In this document: piece after piece, positions 23,992-32,699 of the stretch
Numbering within the stretch: position 1 is the stretch's first letter
Layout: the number at the start of each line of letters is the position of its first letter
Origin: Geobacteraceae bacterium
GTDB lineage: Bacteria > Desulfobacterota > Desulfuromonadia > Desulfuromonadales > BM103
Reading direction: 5' to 3'
Length of the DNA: 53,680 nucleotides
Assembly (NCBI GenBank): GCA_024641085.1
Contig: JAHEDT010000019.1
Span: 1-53,680, forward strand
The notes under the pieces: model-generated
Databases searched by the model: none
The model's input: the letters and a program-made list of their open reading frames with translations, nothing else
What the model was told of the DNA's origin: nothing
Position numbers and translations under genes: made by a program

Positions 23992-24954
23992 ATGATGGAT
24001 TTACCCCCCTACAGGCGTCCCCGGTATCTCTTTAATGCGCATCTGGAAACCGTCTGGCCGGCGCTTTTCAGGAGACCCGCTTCGCCTTTTTACCGCCGCG
24101 AACAGATCAACACCGCTGATGATGATTTTCTCGATCTGGACTGGCTGCAAACGGGGCGCAAACGCCTGGCGGTCGTCACACACGGTCTCGAAGGCGACTC
24201 CAACAGGCACTACGTCGTTGGCATGGCCAGGGCCCTGGATGCTGCCGGCTGGGATGTCCTGGCCTGGAACTTCCGCGGTTGCGGAGGGACAATCAACCGC
24301 CAGCCACGCTTCACCCACAATGGTGCAACCGACGACCTCGATGCCGTCGTCCAGCATGCCCTGGGTCAATACGATTATCCGGTTGTCGCCCTGGTCGGCT
24401 TCAGCATGGGTGGGAATCTGTCATTGGTTTACCTGGGGCGTGAACCGTCAAGGGTCCCTGCAGCGGTCAAGGCCGCGGTGTGTTTCTCGGTACCATGCGA
24501 CCTCGTAGCGGCCTCGCAACAGCTGGCCGAAGCCAGCAACGCCATCTACATGAGGCGTTTCATGCGCCTGATGGGCCGCAAAGTCTTCCAGCACGCCAAG
24601 CGCTTCCCCGAGCGATTTCCGTGCTCAGACTACCACGAACTCAAGACCTTCCAGGATTTTGATGACCGCTATACTGCTCCTTTGCACGGTTTTCGTGATG
24701 CACGTCATTATTGGGAAGAGTGCAGCAGCAGCCGTTACCTGTCTGCCGTTCGCCAACCTGTCTGGATTGTCAACGCCTGCAACGACCCTTTCCTGACTTC
24801 TTCCTGTTTTCCGGAACACCGCCATCATCGCAACCACAGGGTCAACCTGGTCGCGCCGCCGCATGGCGGCCATTGCGGTTTTTCCTGGGCGCATGGAAAG
24901 GGCAGGTATTGGTCGGAGATTGTGGCGACCAGGCTGCTCGCTGATTTGTCTTGA
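23992..24954 (+). CDS. YheT-like alpha/beta hydrolase
   Basis: This 320-residue hydrolase belongs to the AB-hydrolase 4 (YheT/EMB8) family. THGLEGDSNRHYVVGMARAL and NFRGCGGTINR form the oxyanion region, GFSMGGN carries the nucleophile Ser, and the acid and histidine appear late (NDPF and PPHGGHCGF). The natural substrate is unknown, though lipid esters are likely in the family. A TTG at 23983 is in frame, but the ATG at 23992 is the better start. Confidence 0.88.
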   Translation: MMDLPPYRRPRYLFNAHLETVWPALFRRPASPFYRREQINTADDDFLDLDWLQTGRKRLAVVTHGLEGDSNRHYVVGMARALDAAGWDVLAWNFRGCGGTINRQPRFTHNGATDDLDAVVQHALGQYDYPVVALVGFSMGGNLSLVYLGREPSRVPAAVKAAVCFSVPCDLVAASQQLAEASNAIYMRRFMRLMGRKVFQHAKRFPERFPCSDYHELKTFQDFDDRYTAPLHGFRDARHYWEECSSSRYLSAVRQPVWIVNACNDPFLTSSCFPEHRHHRNHRVNLVAPPHGGHCGFSWAHGKGRYWSEIVATRLLADLS

Positions 24955-25072
24955 TGGCATCTCAAGGGTTGGTCCGCTGTCATCTGATGTGTTACTGACC
25001 GCCTCTTCTTGGCGGTGGGATTCGGACAGGAAACATGCTATAGTCACCAATCAATTTTTACGAGGTGGCCAG

Positions 25073-25621
25073 ATGCAGACGATCACTGTAATTTTCGCCC
25101 ATGGACGTGAAAGTGGGCCCTGGGGGACAAAGATCAGGGCCCTCGCCCAGGCAGCGGAAAGACTCGGCTGCCGGGTTGTCAGCCGCGATGACAGTGACAG
25201 CCACGACCCGGAATTGCGGGTCGCCCGCCTGATTGATGAAAGCAGAACGGTCAACGGCCCGGTCATACTGGTCGGTTCCAGCATGGGCGGTTATGTCGCC
25301 GCGGTCGCCTCGCAAGTGGTCCGCCCGGTCGGCCTGTTCCTGATGGCACCTGCTATCGGTCTGCCGGGTTATGCTGTCCAGGGGCCGAAACCGGTCTGCC
25401 GCGAGTTGACTGTCGTGCACGGCTGGAACGACGATATCGTCCCGGTCGATGCTGTCCTCGATTTTGCCCGCACGCACCAGGCGATGCTGCACCTGGTCCC
25501 CGCCGGGCACGCGCTCCTCGAGCAGGTGGAGTGGCTGACCAGGATATTCGAGCTGTTCCTTACGCATTGCATACAGCTTGACTGCCGTCCGGCAAGAGAA
25601 CGCCTGCTGGCGACTTTTTAG
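25073..25621 (+). CDS. Small alpha/beta hydrolase
   Basis: This 182-residue hydrolase has the nucleophile elbow GSSMGGYVA, an acid in NDDIVPVD and a histidine in PAGHALLE. It is close in size to YqiA/RBBP9-type esterases, without a lid domain. The frame is open for 70 codons before the ATG at 25073, but GAGGTGG precedes that ATG and homology begins with ITVIFAHGRESGPWG. It lies between the YheT-like gene and tlyA. The substrate is unknown. Confidence 0.85.
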   Translation: MQTITVIFAHGRESGPWGTKIRALAQAAERLGCRVVSRDDSDSHDPELRVARLIDESRTVNGPVILVGSSMGGYVAAVASQVVRPVGLFLMAPAIGLPGYAVQGPKPVCRELTVVHGWNDDIVPVDAVLDFARTHQAMLHLVPAGHALLEQVEWLTRIFELFLTHCIQLDCRPARERLLATF

Positions 25622-25648
25622 CCCTTTCTACGGAGCGCCGTGGGTGTG

Positions 25649-26395
25649 ATGGCTGCCAAGGAAAGAATCGACAAGCTGATGGTGCAGCGGCAATTGGCCG
25701 GTTCTCGTGAACGGGCCAGGGCACTGATCCTGGCCGGTCGGGTCGTCGTCGATGAGCAGACGATCGACAAGGTCGGCACCCAGGTCGATGTTGAAGCGTC
25801 AATTCGCCTGCGGGGAGAGGATATCCCCTACGTCTCTCGCGGCGGCCTTAAGCTGGCACGAGCCCTGGAGCTTTTCGCCATCGAGGTGGCCGGGCGCACG
25901 GCCATTGATGTCGGGGCTTCCACCGGCGGGTTTACCGATTGCCTGTTGCAAAACGGCGCGGTGCGGGTCTTTGCCGTTGATGTCGGTTACGGACAGCTGG
26001 CCTGGAAGTTGCGCGAAGACAGTCGGGTCGTTAATCTCGAGCGCACCAATATCCGCAACCTGACCGCTGTTCAGATCGGTGCCATTCCTGACCTGGCCGT
26101 GATCGACGCTTCATTCATCTCGCTGGAGAAAGTCCTGCCGGCGACTCTCGCCCTGCTCGCGTCGGGCAGCGATCTCGTGGCACTGATCAAGCCGCAGTTC
26201 GAAGTCGGCAGGGGACAGGTTGGCAAAGGTGGCGTTGTCCGCGATCCGCAGCAACACGCTCAAGTCGTCGAAAAGATCCGGCTGCTGGCAACCCAGCTTG
26301 GCTGCCAGGTCGTGAATCTTTGCGAAAGCCCGATTCTCGGTCCGAAGGGCAATCGTGAGTTCCTGATTCACCTGCGCAAGGAGATGCTTACATGA
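25649..26395 (+). CDS. tlyA: TlyA family rRNA methyltransferase
   Basis: This protein of 248 residues (from the ATG at 25649) has an N-terminal S4 RNA-binding domain (ERIDKLMVQRQLAGSRERA) and a C-terminal FtsJ-like methyltransferase. The SAM loop is DVGASTGGFTDCLL, and catalytic Lys/Asp residues lie in KPQFEVGR and VIDASFISLEKV. TlyA methylates 16S and/or 23S rRNA 2'-hydroxyls; the older label is hemolysin A. GTG codons at 25640 and 25646 are alternative starts, with GGAG at 25632. It overlaps the next gene by four bases. Confidence 0.9.
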   Translation: MAAKERIDKLMVQRQLAGSRERARALILAGRVVVDEQTIDKVGTQVDVEASIRLRGEDIPYVSRGGLKLARALELFAIEVAGRTAIDVGASTGGFTDCLLQNGAVRVFAVDVGYGQLAWKLREDSRVVNLERTNIRNLTAVQIGAIPDLAVIDASFISLEKVLPATLALLASGSDLVALIKPQFEVGRGQVGKGGVVRDPQQHAQVVEKIRLLATQLGCQVVNLCESPILGPKGNREFLIHLRKEMLT

Positions 26396-27162
26396 GTCAC
26401 CTGGCCTATTTTCTCGGTGCAGGTCCTGGCGATCCGGAACTGCTGACCCGCCGGGCAGAACGCTTGCTCAGGGAATGCCAGGTGGTTTACGTGTCACCGC
26501 TCTATGACCAGACCTTTGGTGAACTCCTCGCCGGCAAAGAACTTTTTATCCCCTTCGAGTACTATTTTGCCGACCTGACGACCCTGATCAGGGAGCAGCT
26601 GACCAAAGGACCGGTCGCTTTCCTGGTCCCGGGGGATATGACGTTTTATTCCCCTTTCCAGGCCCTGGTCGATGCGCTGGGCGATCAGGCCGTAGTCGTA
26701 CCGGGTGTTGGTTCCGCCAATGCCGCCTCGGCGCTGTTGAAGAAAACCCTGGACCTCCCCGGAATCAGCAGCCGCACTGTCCTGACATCGCCGCGCACCC
26801 TCGGTGAAGTTCCCGGTGCGCCGAGCATGAGAGATCTTGCTGCACCGGGAGTAACCCTGCTGATTTACATGAACAATCTACCCCTCGCAGATCTGGTTGA
26901 CCAGCTTCGACAAGGCTACGGTAAAGATGTGCCGATTGCTTTGGCTCACCGGGTCGGGCTGCCGGAAGAGGAGATCGTTCTGGCCACTCTCGATTCGATT
27001 CTGGACAAGGTCGGCTCGAGAGATTTCTTCAATCTCGACAATTCCAGTCGGAGGCCGGCCCTGACCCTGCTGTTGGTTGGTGAAAGCCTTACAGCGCAGG
27101 CCGATCCCACCTGGTGGGATTACCGTCGTGACCACATCTGGAAATTTCAGGATAAAAGCTGA
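26392..27162 (+). CDS. Tetrapyrrole-methylase family SAM-dependent methyltransferase
   Basis: This 256-residue protein has the precorrin-methylase opening GAGPGDPELLTRRAERLL, the middle VPGDMTFYSPFQALVDAL and VVPGVGSANAASALL, and the late NNLPLADLVDQL and AHRVGLPEEEIV. These resemble CbiF/CobM (precorrin-4 C11-methylase). No other cobalamin genes are near, and its partner is tlyA, so it may act outside B12 synthesis. It is coupled to tlyA by an ATGA overlap with AAGGAG upstream. Confidence 0.82.
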   Translation: MSHLAYFLGAGPGDPELLTRRAERLLRECQVVYVSPLYDQTFGELLAGKELFIPFEYYFADLTTLIREQLTKGPVAFLVPGDMTFYSPFQALVDALGDQAVVVPGVGSANAASALLKKTLDLPGISSRTVLTSPRTLGEVPGAPSMRDLAAPGVTLLIYMNNLPLADLVDQLRQGYGKDVPIALAHRVGLPEEEIVLATLDSILDKVGSRDFFNLDNSSRRPALTLLLVGESLTAQADPTWWDYRRDHIWKFQDKS

Positions 27163-27377
27163 CATGCATTTTATCACGCTTGTTGATATGCTCGTAATGG
27201 ACGACCTGTTTGTGGAGGGCGGGGCCGATGAGTGTTTCGGGTGCTCCCGACAGGTGGTCAGGGCGACTTGATTCTTATTGTAGGATACAGGGATAAACTG
27301 GCTGCACAGAGTAAATTCCCGGCAACGGCACGCTTGTGTCCTCGTCGGGCGGAGCTTTGCTTTCATGGGGGAACTGT

Positions 27378-27563
27378 ATGATAAATTTACTGGGTAGCGT
27401 AGAAGTCGAAGCTCTGGCGAGAGAAGAGAGCGTGCGTGGTGTGCTGGTGCGCATGGCTCTGAATCAGGCAGAGCAGGCTGACCGAGAGGAACTGGTGCTG
27501 CTGGAAAAGGCGCTGGAGCTGCTCCTGTCGCGTTTCCAGGCCCTGGAGGATGATGCCTCATGA
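27378..27563 (+). CDS. 61-residue protein coupled to a Rad50-like ATPase
   Basis: This small, acidic, helical protein (EVEALAREESVRGVLVRMAL, then a Leu/Glu-rich helix ending ALEDDAS) is not recognised. GGGGGAA precedes its ATG and its stop overlaps the ATPase start as ATGA, so the two are made together. The heptad-like leucines suggest it binds a coiled coil, perhaps that of the ATPase. This is inference; no family match is known to me. The 215 bases upstream hold no other gene. Confidence 0.6.
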   Translation: MINLLGSVEVEALAREESVRGVLVRMALNQAEQADREELVLLEKALELLLSRFQALEDDAS

Positions 27564-29713
27564 TTCTGCGCAGCATAGAACTCGAGAACTTCGGCAGGTT
27601 CCGCAGCCAGACCGTGGAGTTCCGGCGTGGCATGAACCTGGTGATTGGCCCCAACGAAGCTGGCAAGTCAACCCTGGCCGAAGCTGTTCCGGCCGTGCTG
27701 TTCGGTTCCGACCGTCTGGAAAAGTTCAAACCCTGGGGGCGCAACGCCTGCAGTGCGGCGCTGTTTTTTGAAGGCCGTGGCCGTACCATCCAGGTCAAGC
27801 GCAACCTGGTCACGGATGACGTCGAACTGGTCGAGAAAGACGACCTTTATCATGTCTTGTCGCAATTTTCAGGAAAGGTTCCGCTGCGTGGCCGTAGTGC
27901 TGCCAGTCGCGAGTACCGCGACCTGCTGGAATCTTTGCTGGGGGTCTCCGACGAGGGACTTTTCCGGGCAACCTATTTCTTTGGTCACCATCCCCAGGAG
28001 TGGAACGGTGATGAGCTTGCGCAAAAGCTGCGATCGCTGGTCAGTGGGACCGCTGAAACGGACTATGCCGAGATCCTTGACGGGCTGCTCGAGGAACATT
28101 TCGCCCTGACCCGCAGCAATCCCTGGGGGCGTGATAAGCAGCGCGATCGAGAATACGAGGAAGTCTGTCAGCAGTTGGCACAGCAGGGTGGTGCCGAAGC
28201 GGTACCAGTTTTCGTGGAGCTTGACAACAACGCTGAGCTTGCAGGTCAGATTGAACAGTTGACCGGTGAACTGGATCACGACCGCCAGGAATATGCAAAA
28301 GGGCTGCGCTATATCGAACGCGTCCGCCGCCAAGCAGAAGAGTCGTCCGGGACCGTCACACCGGTAGTCGCTTCTCCACCGCCGTCGCGCCCGGTTCCCC
28401 CGGCCAATACCGGGTCCCTGTCAGAACAACTCGTTGCCGCCGGTCTGCCGAAAAATCCACCCCGCGAATTGCCGGAAATGCTTTCCGAAGCGGCCGAAAT
28501 CAGACAAGAACTTGCCACCCTTCAGCAGCCTTACGCGGCGCTGGGCAATCGCGAAAAGCATGTCCCCAAGGTTCCCTGGCTGGTGCTTTCCAGTCTGGTC
28601 GCGGTGCTGCTGGTCGTGGTTGCCGTTGCCTGGTGGCAGGATTTCCAGCTTCTCTGGATCGCAGTCGCAGCTGCATTATGCAGCGGCATGCTCTTGGGCT
28701 GGGGCGGCTGGCGCCATGTGGCCCGGAACAAAGCGCTTGCCGAATGCCTTAAAGAACGCAACCGGCTTGACCAGAAGAAGCACACCGCCCAGCAGCGCCA
28801 GGCCGACTTGAGTGAACGCTGCGAATTTCTCGGCCTGCCTTCATCTGCTATCGACCTGGTCAGGCTGCAGAAACAGGTTGCCGCTCACCGTGACTTGCTC
28901 GCCAACTTCTGGAGTGGCGGGGAGGCTGCTGTTGATGGGCCGGGCAGCTCGGCTCAGGGCGGCACCGGAGCTGTCGTATCAGATGTGCCCAGTGCTTCGC
29001 TTGACGCCAACCTGGCCGGAGAAGAGCTGGCGAAGCTGGAAACGCGCATGGCTGAATTCGAGGCCGATTTAAAGCGCAAGGAAGAGCGCCTGCAGGATTT
29101 GGCCAGGCAGCTGGCGGAGGCCCCTGCCGAGTCGTCTCGGCAGGCCGTGACCCCGGCCTCGAAGCTGTTCGCTCGCAAGCGCGATCTGGAGGGACGTATT
29201 GCAGTTCTGCGCAAGGCTGTCAACCTGCTCGCCGAGGCGGTCGATGAGTTCGGAAAATCGCACCTGGTGCACTTGAACGACGAGGCGGGCAAGCTGTTCG
29301 GTAAGATAACCGGCGGGCGTTATGCGGCTTTGAAGCTCGATGAGAACATGACACCATCGGTTCAGGTCGATAGCCGGCGCTGGATGTCTTTTGACCACTT
29401 CAGCAGAGGGACCGTCGACGCCATCTACCTGGCGCTGCGCATTGCCTTGGCAAAAGTCCGCAACGATGGGCGCTCGCTGCCGTTGATGCTCGATGACCCG
29501 TTCGTGCACCTCGACCAGAAACGTCTGGCGACTGCGCTCAACCTGGTCGACCTGGCTGCGGCTGATGGACAATTGATCCTCTTTAGTCATAATATGGAAC
29601 TAGGCAAGCGTGCGGCGCGTGAGCGCTGGCACGTCGTCCCCCTCGACGGGGATTCTGCCGTTGCCAGCCCCGAGGAAGGAGACGAACATGTCGGACAGCT
29701 GCATCTTCTGTAA
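27560..29713 (+). CDS. Membrane-spanning SMC/Rad50-like (YhaN-type) AAA ATPase
   Basis: This 717-residue ABC-class ATPase has its halves at the two ends. The Walker A loop is GPNEAGKS (residues 30-37) after FGRFRSQTVEF. A signature-like FSRGTVDAIYLALRIAL lies near 613 and Walker B LPLMLDDPFVHLD near 640-650. Between them are charged coiled coils broken by two adjacent membrane helices (about 338-360 and 366-388), the YhaN hallmark. YhaN normally pairs with a YhaO/Mre11-like phosphoesterase, but here only a 61-residue protein precedes it. A role in DNA-end or membrane-linked repair is family inference. Confidence 0.8.
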   Translation: MILRSIELENFGRFRSQTVEFRRGMNLVIGPNEAGKSTLAEAVPAVLFGSDRLEKFKPWGRNACSAALFFEGRGRTIQVKRNLVTDDVELVEKDDLYHVLSQFSGKVPLRGRSAASREYRDLLESLLGVSDEGLFRATYFFGHHPQEWNGDELAQKLRSLVSGTAETDYAEILDGLLEEHFALTRSNPWGRDKQRDREYEEVCQQLAQQGGAEAVPVFVELDNNAELAGQIEQLTGELDHDRQEYAKGLRYIERVRRQAEESSGTVTPVVASPPPSRPVPPANTGSLSEQLVAAGLPKNPPRELPEMLSEAAEIRQELATLQQPYAALGNREKHVPKVPWLVLSSLVAVLLVVVAVAWWQDFQLLWIAVAAALCSGMLLGWGGWRHVARNKALAECLKERNRLDQKKHTAQQRQADLSERCEFLGLPSSAIDLVRLQKQVAAHRDLLANFWSGGEAAVDGPGSSAQGGTGAVVSDVPSASLDANLAGEELAKLETRMAEFEADLKRKEERLQDLARQLAEAPAESSRQAVTPASKLFARKRDLEGRIAVLRKAVNLLAEAVDEFGKSHLVHLNDEAGKLFGKITGGRYAALKLDENMTPSVQVDSRRWMSFDHFSRGTVDAIYLALRIALAKVRNDGRSLPLMLDDPFVHLDQKRLATALNLVDLAAADGQLILFSHNMELGKRAARERWHVVPLDGDSAVASPEEGDEHVGQLHLL

Positions 29714-30035
29714 GATTATTGCCGGAGAGATCCCGGGGAAGTGCGTCTACCAGGATGACCAGCTGGTCGCTCTAGAAGATATCAACCCCCAGGCCCCGCA
29801 CCATATTCTTATCGTACCACGCAAGCATATCCGTACGACCCTCGATTTGACGACCGCTGACAATGCCCTGATCGGCCGCGTCTTCCAGGTGGCCGGCAAA
29901 ATCGCCCATGACATGGGATTCTCGGAGGATGGCTTCCGGATCGTCAATAATTGCAACGAAGCTGGCGGCCAGGTCGTCTGGCACATCCACTTTCATCTGC
30001 TTGGCGGTCGCGATATGAACTGGCCTCCCGGATGA
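29688..30035 (+). CDS. HIT family nucleotide hydrolase (HinT-like)
   Basis: This 115-residue protein has the zinc cysteines C5 and C8 (CIFCKI) and the histidine triad at His99, 101 and 103 (VWHIHFHLLGG). These proteins split nucleoside phosphoramidates such as AMP-lysine. The start at 29688 follows GAGGAAGGAGA and lies 26 bases inside the ATPase gene, so the two are probably coupled. The normal HinT length and ending (GRDMNWPPG) make the family call firm. Confidence 0.93.
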   Translation: MSDSCIFCKIIAGEIPGKCVYQDDQLVALEDINPQAPHHILIVPRKHIRTTLDLTTADNALIGRVFQVAGKIAHDMGFSEDGFRIVNNCNEAGGQVVWHIHFHLLGGRDMNWPPG

Positions 30036-30136
30036 GAGCCTGACCGACGCAATTTAACCTCAATGTCGCAACATGGTTGCGAGTCCGCATGTTCTGATTT
30101 ACTATCGCATGACTCTTTGCATGGACGCACAGCTGC

Positions 30137-31624
30137 ATGAACAGTACTCTCCAGCCGATAGCCCAGCCAGAAGCAACGGCAAACTATGATGACAAACGAC
30201 AGCAGCGCCTGATCAACGAGATCATGGAGCTGCTGGTTACGCATTACGGCGGCAGCCTCAGCGAAAAGAAACTCGACGAGTCGATTGACGACCTGCAGAA
30301 GGCGATCAGCCTGGCTCAGGAGGCCCATCGTCAACAGCTGCGCAAGTCTGGTGAACCGTATTTTTTCCACCCTTTGCGCGTGGCTCACCTGGCCGCCCGT
30401 TACTGGATGGACTTTGCTTCGGTCATTGCCGCGCTACTGCACGATGTCGTCGAAGATACACCAACATCTCTTGAAGATGTCGCGGCAATGTTCGGTATGG
30501 AGATCGGCCTGCTGGTTGACGGTCTGACCAAGGTTGATGACGATTTGCTCAGCCGCAGCATCCTCAAGGAACAGACCTACCGGAAGCAGGTGCTCCTGGC
30601 GGTCCGGGATGTAAGGGTGCTCTGTCTGAAGTTCTGGGACCGGATCGACAACCTGCAGACCATACAGGCCCTGAATCCCGAGAAGCAGCGCCTGATTGCC
30701 GAAGAGACCCGCACCATCTATGTCCCCCTGGCCAGGCATCTCGGCATGGGGCGGGTGGCCACGGAACTGGATGCCCTTTCCCTGACGATTCTCTACCCGA
30801 AGCGTGCCGTGCGTTATGACCTTGCGGTCAATGAGCTGCGAGGCTATTACGAATCGATCCTTGGCCGCATACGTTCTGAAGTCCACAACATTCTCGAACA
30901 CTCCAAAATCGACGCTCTGGTCAAGGACCGCTGGCGCCCGTTTTCCATCGCGGCCGCACGGATGACCGCCCGTGGTTTACCGACGCTCTATACCCTGGAC
31001 ATCCTGGTCGATCGTTCCATGGATGCTTACCATGCCCTCGGCCTGCTGCATCGCCTCTACCCACCGATTCCCGGCAAGCTGCGTGACCATCTGAATGTCC
31101 CCTCGCAGTACGGATACCAGGCCCTGAAGACCAGTGTACAGGCCGGCGAGGTTCGTCTGCGGGTCGAAATTACCACACGCAAGCTGTCGCGCTTCAACGA
31201 CGCCGGTGTCCTGGCGCCGGGCTTCGAATTTCGCAGCTCGAACTTCGAAGACCTGATGCAGTCGCTCATCGAAGGGGAGTCAGCATTCGATATGGAGAGC
31301 CTGCGCCTGGCTTCCGCTTCGATCCAGGTTTATACGCCGCTGGGCGATGTCCGTTTGCTACCGGAGGGGAGCAGCGCCCTGGACTTTGCGTTCAATATTC
31401 ATGAACAGCTTGGTCTGCATGCTGTTCGCGTACGCATTAATGGTAAAACACGGCTGCTCAAGGCCCGCCTCATGGACGGAGATCAAGTCGATGTCGAAAC
31501 AGCCGACCGCCCGACAGTACTGCCGAAGTGGCTGGAGTGGGCGGTTACGCCACGCGCCCGCAACAGTATCCGCCGTTACCTGCGCTCGAAAGTCAAACAG
31601 CCGCGAAGCAGCGACAAGCCGTAG
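30137..31624 (+). CDS. Short RelA/SpoT homologue, hydrolase intact, synthetase degenerate
   Basis: This 495-residue RSH protein has a (p)ppGpp hydrolase domain with all key residues: His78 in GEPYFFHP, HDVVED at 102-107 and DRIDN at 168-172. The synthetase-like domain has lost essential positions: the usual YDL Asp reads YTL, GYQSLHT reads GYQALKT, and the EIQIRT motif is not recognisable. A TGS domain (VYTPLGDVRLLPEGSSALDFAF) ends the protein; the helical and ACT parts of long RSH are absent. It is likely a hydrolase or regulator only. Confidence 0.85.
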   Translation: MNSTLQPIAQPEATANYDDKRQQRLINEIMELLVTHYGGSLSEKKLDESIDDLQKAISLAQEAHRQQLRKSGEPYFFHPLRVAHLAARYWMDFASVIAALLHDVVEDTPTSLEDVAAMFGMEIGLLVDGLTKVDDDLLSRSILKEQTYRKQVLLAVRDVRVLCLKFWDRIDNLQTIQALNPEKQRLIAEETRTIYVPLARHLGMGRVATELDALSLTILYPKRAVRYDLAVNELRGYYESILGRIRSEVHNILEHSKIDALVKDRWRPFSIAAARMTARGLPTLYTLDILVDRSMDAYHALGLLHRLYPPIPGKLRDHLNVPSQYGYQALKTSVQAGEVRLRVEITTRKLSRFNDAGVLAPGFEFRSSNFEDLMQSLIEGESAFDMESLRLASASIQVYTPLGDVRLLPEGSSALDFAFNIHEQLGLHAVRVRINGKTRLLKARLMDGDQVDVETADRPTVLPKWLEWAVTPRARNSIRRYLRSKVKQPRSSDKP

Positions 31625-32699
31625 CCTTTTACGGCGCGGCTTCCCTTTCGGACTGCTGCTTCTGCTCCTGCTGTCCGCAACTCCCGCCTGGACAGACCAG
31701 GCCAACGTTTTCATCTACCACCGCTTCAACGATGACCGCTATCCCTCGACCAACACCTCCGTCGTGGACTTCCAGGCACAGTTGGATCTGCTGCAGCGGG
31801 AGCAGTTCACTGTTCTTAACCTCGGCCAGATCGTGGCCAGATTGCAGGCGGGGGAGAGCCTGCCGCCGCGTTGTGCCGTCATCACGGTCGATGATGCCTA
31901 CCAATCCTTCCTGAGTGATGGCTGGCCGCTGCTGAAACGCTACGGCTTCCCAGTCACCCTGTTCGTCACTACGGATACGGTTGGGGGCGGAGACTACCTC
32001 TCCTGGCAGGAACTGGCCGGGTTGCAGCAGGAAGGCGTTGAAATTGGCAACCACTCGGCCAGCCACGCCCATCTCCTGGACCGGTCGCGTGCGGAGAGTG
32101 TTCCCGAATGGTCCGCGCGGGTAACCGCAGATATCAGGCGTGCCCAGCGGGCGCTTAGGGAGCATCTAGGCTCTGCACCGCAGCTGTTCGCCTATCCCTA
32201 TGGCGAATTCGATCCGACCCTGGCCCGGCTGATCAAAAGTGCAGGCTTTGCCGCGGCCTTTGGCCAGCAGTCCGGTGTTATTACCGCGGGTCAGGACTTC
32301 TTCCGTTTGCCGCGTTTTGCGGTGGGTGGTGCCCACGCGTCCCTCGACGAATTCCGCAGCAAGCTTTTCATGCATCATCTGCCGATCAGGGTTATAGAAC
32401 CAGAAAGCACTGTTATTGTAGACAATAACCCGCCGATATTAACATTTTACATGAATAGCGAGGGGTTAGAAGAAAGCTCACTGCGCTGTTTCGCGGCGGG
32501 TTCATCAGAGTGCACGATCAACAAGCTTAATGGCAATGATGGGGTCTACGTGGCAAAAGCGCTGCACCCGATAACCGGCCGGCGCAGCAAGTACACTTTG
32601 ACGGCGAGGAGTGTGGGCGGTGGGGCGTGGTACTGGTTCAGTCAGCTATGGATTCGCCCAGACGTTGGCGAGGTGGCCGATCATTCTGTTCCGCGTTGA
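31491..32699 (+). CDS. Secreted polysaccharide deacetylase (NodB domain)
   Basis: This protein has a NodB deacetylase domain with TVDDAY (motif 1, near residue 130), the metal histidines in NHSASH (motif 2, near 188) and FAYPYGEFD (motif 3). A C-terminal beta domain ends WYWFSQLWI. A signal peptide (FPFGLLLLLLLSATPA) begins only about 50 residues in. The nearest standard start is the ATG at 31491, with GGAG upstream, 134 bases inside the RSH gene. No closer ATG, GTG or TTG exists. It likely deacetylates peptidoglycan or exopolysaccharide in the periplasm. Confidence 0.8.
   Translation: MSKQPTARQYCRSGWSGRLRHAPATVSAVTCARKSNSREAATSRSLLRRGFPFGLLLLLLLSATPAWTDQANVFIYHRFNDDRYPSTNTSVVDFQAQLDLLQREQFTVLNLGQIVARLQAGESLPPRCAVITVDDAYQSFLSDGWPLLKRYGFPVTLFVTTDTVGGGDYLSWQELAGLQQEGVEIGNHSASHAHLLDRSRAESVPEWSARVTADIRRAQRALREHLGSAPQLFAYPYGEFDPTLARLIKSAGFAAAFGQQSGVITAGQDFFRLPRFAVGGAHASLDEFRSKLFMHHLPIRVIEPESTVIVDNNPPILTFYMNSEGLEESSLRCFAAGSSECTINKLNGNDGVYVAKALHPITGRRSKYTLTARSVGGGAWYWFSQLWIRPDVGEVADHSVPR

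Follow-up and report, generated by a model that had tools for sequence, protein, structure and literature searches.

The Bacillus YhaO–YhaN (SbcE) pair is a putative double-strand-break repair system: a section of one source describes yhaONM as a putative double-strand-break repair cluster, with yhaO and yhaN in the LexA/SOS regulon (PMC3896406), and a passage in another introduces SbcE as an SMC-like protein of double-strand-break repair (PMC4205851). For the Mre11–Rad50 complex, excerpts from two sources state that Mre11 attaches by its C-terminal domain to the coiled coil of Rad50, close to the head, and that this domain holds the complex together (PMC11661359, PMC10418313), and a structure of Rad50 with the Mre11 helix-loop-helix motif, 3QKU, is mentioned in a passage of PMC8824468. 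Here, we analysed a stretch of 53,680 nucleotides from a Geobacteraceae bacterium (contig JAHEDT010000019.1; hereafter, the window), in which a gene for a 61-residue protein is joined to the gene of a 717-residue Rad50/YhaN-like ATPase with two predicted membrane helices. As far as sequences can demonstrate it, this locus is a YhaO–YhaN (Mre11–Rad50-type) operon stripped of the YhaO nuclease and capping domains.

The Bacillus pair, likened to the window locus by description, has the same kind of ATPase and the same pairing, whereas the window locus is without the catalytic part of YhaO and has the tail alone left. With Mre11–Rad50 and SbcCD the locus shares the Rad50-type heads; the nuclease of its relatives has the Mre11/SbcD fold, and the tail of that nuclease sits where the Rad50-binding helix-loop-helix sits. 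In contrast to these complexes, the window pair has neither a nuclease nor a CxxC hook and carries two hydrophobic helices instead. The Rad50 head with the bare Mre11 helix-loop-helix in 3QKU has, as far as its partial description goes, a part list similar to that of the proposed natural pair, but it is a laboratory construct from Pyrococcus furiosus without a membrane part. The Lamassu proteins LmuB and LmuC also combine a Rad50/SMC-like ATPase with an accessory protein, according to a passage of PMC10586767; unlike them, the window locus shows no nearby effector gene and no LmuC match, and its place is shared across the order Desulfuromonadales. Our searches of open-licence PubMed Central listed no paper on a Rad50-binding domain that stands alone after the loss of its nuclease.

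The genome assembly holding the window is 3.5 Mb long and 99.5% complete. The names of the nearest named relatives with this ATPase indicate that its order is probably Desulfuromonadales. A preliminary description of this DNA had given the positions of the two open reading frames and the ATGA overlap that joins the end of the 61-residue gene to the start of the ATPase gene, and these proved exact:

27378..27563, + strand: open reading frame of 61 amino acids, from the ATG at 27378 to the TGA at 27563; acidic product, pI 4.3
27560..29713, + strand: gene of the 717-amino-acid Rad50/YhaN-like ATPase (Pfam, alignment A2 and PDB profile matches)

By its sequence, the 61-residue protein is the detached C-terminal part, about 60 residues long, of the YhaO/Mre11-type nuclease that is usual at this spot. 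We ran a profile built from the 61-residue proteins of the family alone against 27 nucleases, which had been selected by their catalytic part only, without regard to a match of the tail; in 26 of them it matched the C-terminal end, with 16.1–42.4 bits. The reversed and shuffled controls reached at most −1.1 and 4.3 bits, respectively. Columns 2–60 of the small protein were aligned by hhalign to the C-terminal end of the nucleases nearly without gaps (probability 98, E 7.5e-14), which places the homology in the C-terminal domain of the order's YhaO-type proteins. The alignment covers only the last ~60 nuclease residues, and the metallophosphoesterase catalytic domain is absent from the 61-residue protein, which also gave no Pfam match and no PADLOC or NCBIfam family above the cut-off. 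The tail gene and the full nuclease gene have the same position and the same ATGA overlap within the arrangement TlyA–TPM–(U32)–nuclease–ATPase–HIT found across the order, U32 or TPM being absent in some loci. In 13 loci of the same order (L018–L030), the upstream gene encodes a metallophosphoesterase of ~376 amino acids (identified by Pfam on two of them), and the ten of their ATPases that were aligned are 33–38% identical to that of the window. The frame is more than chance, since it is present in 15 of the 22 family genomes; both a chance frame and an unrelated new gene were ruled out by the controlled homology together with the purifying selection described below. The small protein had been described beforehand as helical and coupled to the ATPase, and this stood. 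It is conserved, but it is not an independent partner, being the tail detached from the lost nuclease.

For a named relative, L094, we obtained a predicted model of the nuclease with a predicted local distance difference test (pLDDT) score of 90.7. It matched Mre11/SbcD structures with Foldseek E-values down to 3.6e-18 and with Z scores of 23.7–27.6 over 39 Mre11/SbcD rows. Thirty of these 39 structural alignments stop at model residues 314–320, where the nuclease and capping domains end. As the piece kept in the window corresponds to nuclease residues 317–376, the retained piece starts at the border between the capping domain and the C-terminal tail. This tail is presumed to be the Rad50-binding helix-loop-helix domain. 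The model of the 61-residue protein itself (pLDDT 93.5) is a single small helical domain with helices at residues 8–14, 19–31 and 36–60.

The preliminary description held that Rad50/SbcC/YhaN-like ATPases usually adjoin an Mre11/YhaO-type phosphoesterase and that this one is without such a partner. Both statements agree with our survey. Among the 80 named ATPase loci listed, which are the best of a longer list, with many larger SbcC-like proteins among them, the nuclease lies directly upstream in 74, while two are cut by a contig end and four are without it. To the last group belong L092 and L093, whose ATPases are nearest to that of the window among the named relatives listed (63% and 48% identity). 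L143 and L150, also named loci without an upstream nuclease, have frames of 1173 and 1202 amino acids.

In the window, no Mre11/YhaO-type nuclease stands beside the ATPase. The searches of its genome with the order's YhaO-type nuclease (E 0.001) and with TIGR00619 (sbcD) gave no match, and a relocation of the nuclease elsewhere in the genome was rejected on this ground. The two findings that would have refuted the preliminary description, a YhaO-like gene at another place and a 61-residue frame that is not conserved in relatives, were thus not obtained. Seven metallophosphoesterase matches were seen there; three of them are members of different families (TIGR00282, YfcE, YaeI), and four are unnamed. 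No orthologue of the nuclease was found in the 22 family genomes, some of which are incomplete (in G008 the upstream side lies past the contig end); the best match, 3.8e-20 in G003, was on a different contig. A separate SbcD-like frame is present in nine of the 22, and the window genome and its genus mate have none.

Most of the genomes compared are in many contigs, with a completeness of 59–100%. The tail was found as a gene of its own in the 15 family genomes mentioned above, across five of the eight genera, in open frames of 64–98 amino acids, and its own ATG lies at the identical aligned codon in all 15. In the order, 70 of 136 genomes carry the tail. Beyond the family there are 55 tails, 51 of them in frames of 374–497 amino acids, three in frames of 211–231 and one, in G124, in a frame of 123. 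When the search was widened to the 277 genomes of the class, 72 gave a tail match at E 1e-4, the two additional ones in frames of 385 amino acids.

Both the tail and the ATPase are under purifying selection in the family. The ratio of nonsynonymous to synonymous substitution rates (dN/dS) was 0.12–0.27 for the tail and 0.14–0.16 for the ATPase in the same six family pairs (each p<0.05); these pairs partly overlap through shared genomes and have a high dS in several cases, so that the values are rough. In a wider listing of 12 of the 15 tails (L012, L014 and L016 left out), which used pairs with a pS (synonymous differences) under 0.65, the tail dN/dS was 0.06–0.75 over 36 unsaturated pairs out of 66. 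In the two genomes of the window genus, the 61-residue gene is 84% identical (153/183), compared with 58% (127/218) for the DNA before it. Because of these ratios and this contrast in identity, we conclude that both genes are kept as proteins.

The ATPase carries a head of the Rad50/YhaN type, with Walker A at its N-terminal end and the signature and Walker B at its C-terminal end. Its Pfam matches are AAA_23 (2.1e-15) and AAA_27 (4.2e-14), and the best match of its profile among solved structures is the Rad50 head 3qku_A (E 1e-22). The CxxC zinc hook of Rad50 proper was not found in the 717-residue sequence, which has central hydrophobic helices instead, as had been noticed before. The intervening coiled coil was read from the alignment by eye. 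The parts of the ATPase gene are as follows:

27647..27670, + strand: Walker A, GPNEAGKS, residues 30–37 (alignment A2)
28061..28168, + strand: head-proximal N-terminal coiled-coil segment, residues 168–203, including LTRSNPWGRDK; presumed docking site of the 61-residue protein
28571..28699, + strand: two predicted membrane helices, residues 338–356 and 362–380 (Kyte–Doolittle scan)
29201..29302, + strand: head-proximal C-terminal coiled-coil segment, residues 548–581 (ATPase alignments)
29381..29527, + strand: ABC signature SRGT and Walker B LPLMLDDPFVHLD (alignment A2)

A hydropathy scan of 25 ATPases left two (G034 and G040) without any segment above the threshold. In the window genome, the ATPase as a query matched itself only; AAA_23 gave 16 matches there, the strongest two after the window ATPase being SMC and RecN, with 13 weaker ones not named.

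The head-proximal coiled coil is where the 61-residue protein would be expected to dock, by analogy with Mre11 and Rad50. For this region, 67 ATPases were aligned: 49 nuclease-bearing rows (including G129, with a nuclease frame of 231 amino acids, and G052 and G069, whose tails miss profile A1), 13 of the 16 known tail-only cases, G122 with a degenerate tail, and four with neither nuclease nor tail. The N-terminal coil segment 168–203 is filled in all 49 nuclease-bearing rows (0.83–1.00), in all 13 tail-only rows (1.00) and in G122 as well. Among the ATPases with neither partner, G007 and G013 have next to nothing of it (0.03), G030 has a part (0.44) and G019 has it intact. The PWG motif was found in 36 of the 49 nuclease-bearing and in all 13 tail-only rows, and the membrane segment is filled to 0.91–1.00 in all 67. 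It should be noted that the coil segments were picked beforehand by conservation but the gaps had been noticed before counting, so that the count quantifies an earlier sighting. The deletions of the coil base amount to only two independent lineages, and the g7 ATPases (those of G007, G013 and G011) are decayed in further motifs; the switch histidine is missing together with the coil base in the aligned rows of G007 and G013.

The C-terminus of the ATPase reads GQLHLL, and the pattern QL[HYSCR][LF]L is present in 21 of 21 aligned rows. Among the 80 named loci listed, a C-terminal QLxLL occurs only in the five Desulfuromonadales loci and one other. It resembles a sliding-clamp-binding peptide. 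This candidate was set aside: positions 29688–29713 overlap the start of the HIT gene in another frame, and dual coding may explain the motif equally well.

The best reading of the locus, and in our judgement a probable one, is a nuclease-free Mre11–Rad50-type complex in which the orphan docking domain is docked on the ATPase and which has a non-cutting role at the membrane. By comparison with the relatives, the YhaO nuclease and capping domains have been lost, and the last ~60 residues have stayed as a gene of their own, which overlaps the start of the ATPase gene. The tail would dock on the coil base of the membrane-anchored ATPase, like the Mre11 domain on Rad50, and may stabilise or tune the ATPase dimer. 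The pair could then work at the membrane as an ATP-driven clamp or tether for DNA, with the cutting activity gone. A function is favoured because the protein sequence is conserved over five genera and the state of the coil base matches.

A second loss of the same kind was seen in another family. In G124 (L206), an in-frame internal deletion has removed the catalytic core of the nuclease. What is left (98 amino acids) consists of some 30 residues from the N-terminus and 68 from the C-terminus, and its tail is still matched with E 1.6e-13. A full-length nuclease gene is present in its relatives G123, G125, G126 and G024. This deletion rests on one genome, which is 99% complete. Well-supported branches of the ATPase tree part G124 from the window's family, and counted on this tree the tail-only state needs three changes (including the loss of G019 within the family) and the full-length state four; the tree was made by a quick method, with G120 and G041 flagged as long and the g7 pair on a long stem (1.35). 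The catalytic core was lost separately in G124, with the tail kept in frame. We give about even chances to the wider statement that a bare Rad50-binding domain, cut at a domain border, has become a micro-subunit of a membrane-anchored clamp at least twice in the order.

Several observations weigh against a functional nuclease-free complex. As for the identity of the tail, the divergent nuclease L076 scored 1.7 bits, inside the control range; the structural second look barely covers the nuclease tail; and the model of the 61-residue protein gave nothing significant against the PDB (best E 4.3), with no Mre11 chain in the few rows obtained. As for its maintenance, the tail and the ATPase are under weaker constraint than in the nuclease-bearing relatives, where two pairs gave a dN/dS of 0.03–0.08 for the tail and 0.09–0.10 for the ATPase. 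The tail dN/dS exceeded 0.5 in two of the 36 pairs, both with G021, a genome 59% complete. In G122 (L211), a relative of G124, the core is lost and little of the tail can still be recognised (E 0.04). An in-frame deletion in G019 (L009) leaves a 14-residue leader that still overlaps the start of an intact ATPase; its coil segment is intact as well, so that the deletion pattern holds in three of the four rows that lack both nuclease and tail. The g7 genomes G007, G013 and G011 (L080, L081 and L083–L084) have neither nuclease nor tail and a short, strongly diverged ATPase. In G030 (L082), the ATPase, also diverged, directly follows TPM with no nuclease or tail between them, a separate complete loss of both. 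The ATPase gene of G015 (L017) is broken by stops and a frame change beside an intact tail gene, and no ATPase match was obtained in G002 and G006.

These losses, the weaker constraint and the leader of G019 are also what speaks for the main and serious rival, a relic in slow decay. In that case, the tail and the ATPase would linger after the loss of the nuclease, and the short frame would survive mainly as a translational link between the ATPase and the gene before it. A coupling leader needs only an open frame, yet the tail has the low dN/dS values of the six family pairs, its positions are conserved (E16, G21, E43 and F53 are invariant) and five of the eight genera of the family have retained the frame. 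We therefore regard slow decay as rather unlikely, while keeping it in view as the explanation to be taken most seriously beside a functional nuclease-free complex.

The genes around the pair bear on the remaining explanations:

27164..27243, + strand: 5' remnant of a U32-peptidase gene (local DNA alignment, tblastn match)
29688..30035, + strand: HIT-family hydrolase gene (PF01230, 2.7e-26), overlapping the 3' end of the ATPase gene
30137–31624: HD/TGS protein gene, with a weak RelA_SpoT domain match (Pfam)

The HD/TGS gene is a frequent downstream neighbour of the ATPase locus across the order. The U32 remnant was aligned to the 5' ends of four intact U32 genes, and for each of them none of 300 mononucleotide shuffles equalled the score. 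The same shuffle test did not detect a remnant in the sister genome L002, and a 3' remnant reaching up to 27377, suggested by eye, was not significant in it. In many family relatives, an intact U32 gene stands upstream of the tail, its stop overlapping the ATG of the tail. In G012 and G010, U32 is missing and TlyA directly precedes the tail. Since U32 is reduced in the window and absent in these two, the tail stays by the ATPase while the upstream genes change.

The stop/start overlap of U32 and tail would suit a tail serving as an adaptor that brings another enzyme in trans, namely U32, HIT or an unlinked nuclease, in place of the lost one. However, other members of the order have U32 in front of intact nucleases too, and it was rejected as a required partner by its remnant state in the window and its absence from the loci of G012 and G010, both of which keep the tail. 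The 61-residue protein is, moreover, one helical domain without a second one. HIT, the other linked candidate, follows the ATPase in 28 of the 30 loci L001–L030, contig ends interrupting the other two. The nuclease-bearing loci L018–L030 have it without exception (13 of 13). Its link to the ATPase is evidently ancestral and it is a general downstream neighbour, which removes it as a specific third part; the three-part unit with HIT proposed in the preliminary description was not borne out. An adaptor role is accordingly improbable. A Lamassu-type defence device, in which the ATPase would be the sensor and the small protein an LmuC-like subunit, is very improbable. LmuB is the best PADLOC match of the ATPase (1.6e-20), but every Rad50-like protein should give such a match, and the ATPase matched 126 PADLOC families. 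No LmuA-like effector was found by Pfam among the six neighbouring genes scanned (24863–32696), the small protein has no PADLOC match to support an LmuC, and many families of the order have the locus at this position with these neighbours. The earlier suggestion of a defence role found no support in the genes scanned.

The system is thus a naturally nuclease-stripped YhaO–YhaN with an orphan, presumed docking domain, a variant of the known YhaO–YhaN type, and it explains one set of tiny hypothetical genes beside Rad50-like ATPases. Nuclease-independent jobs of Rad50-type complexes are usually probed with mutants. Here, whole lineages have done that experiment, the cutting half being gone and the ATPase and the docking domain still being under selection. 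The pair may serve as a minimal two-protein system for the roles of the ATPase, the membrane anchor and the docking domain alone. If the proposed reading is true, a non-cutting role such as tethering or clamping would be the part of the machine that is under selection in these bacteria.

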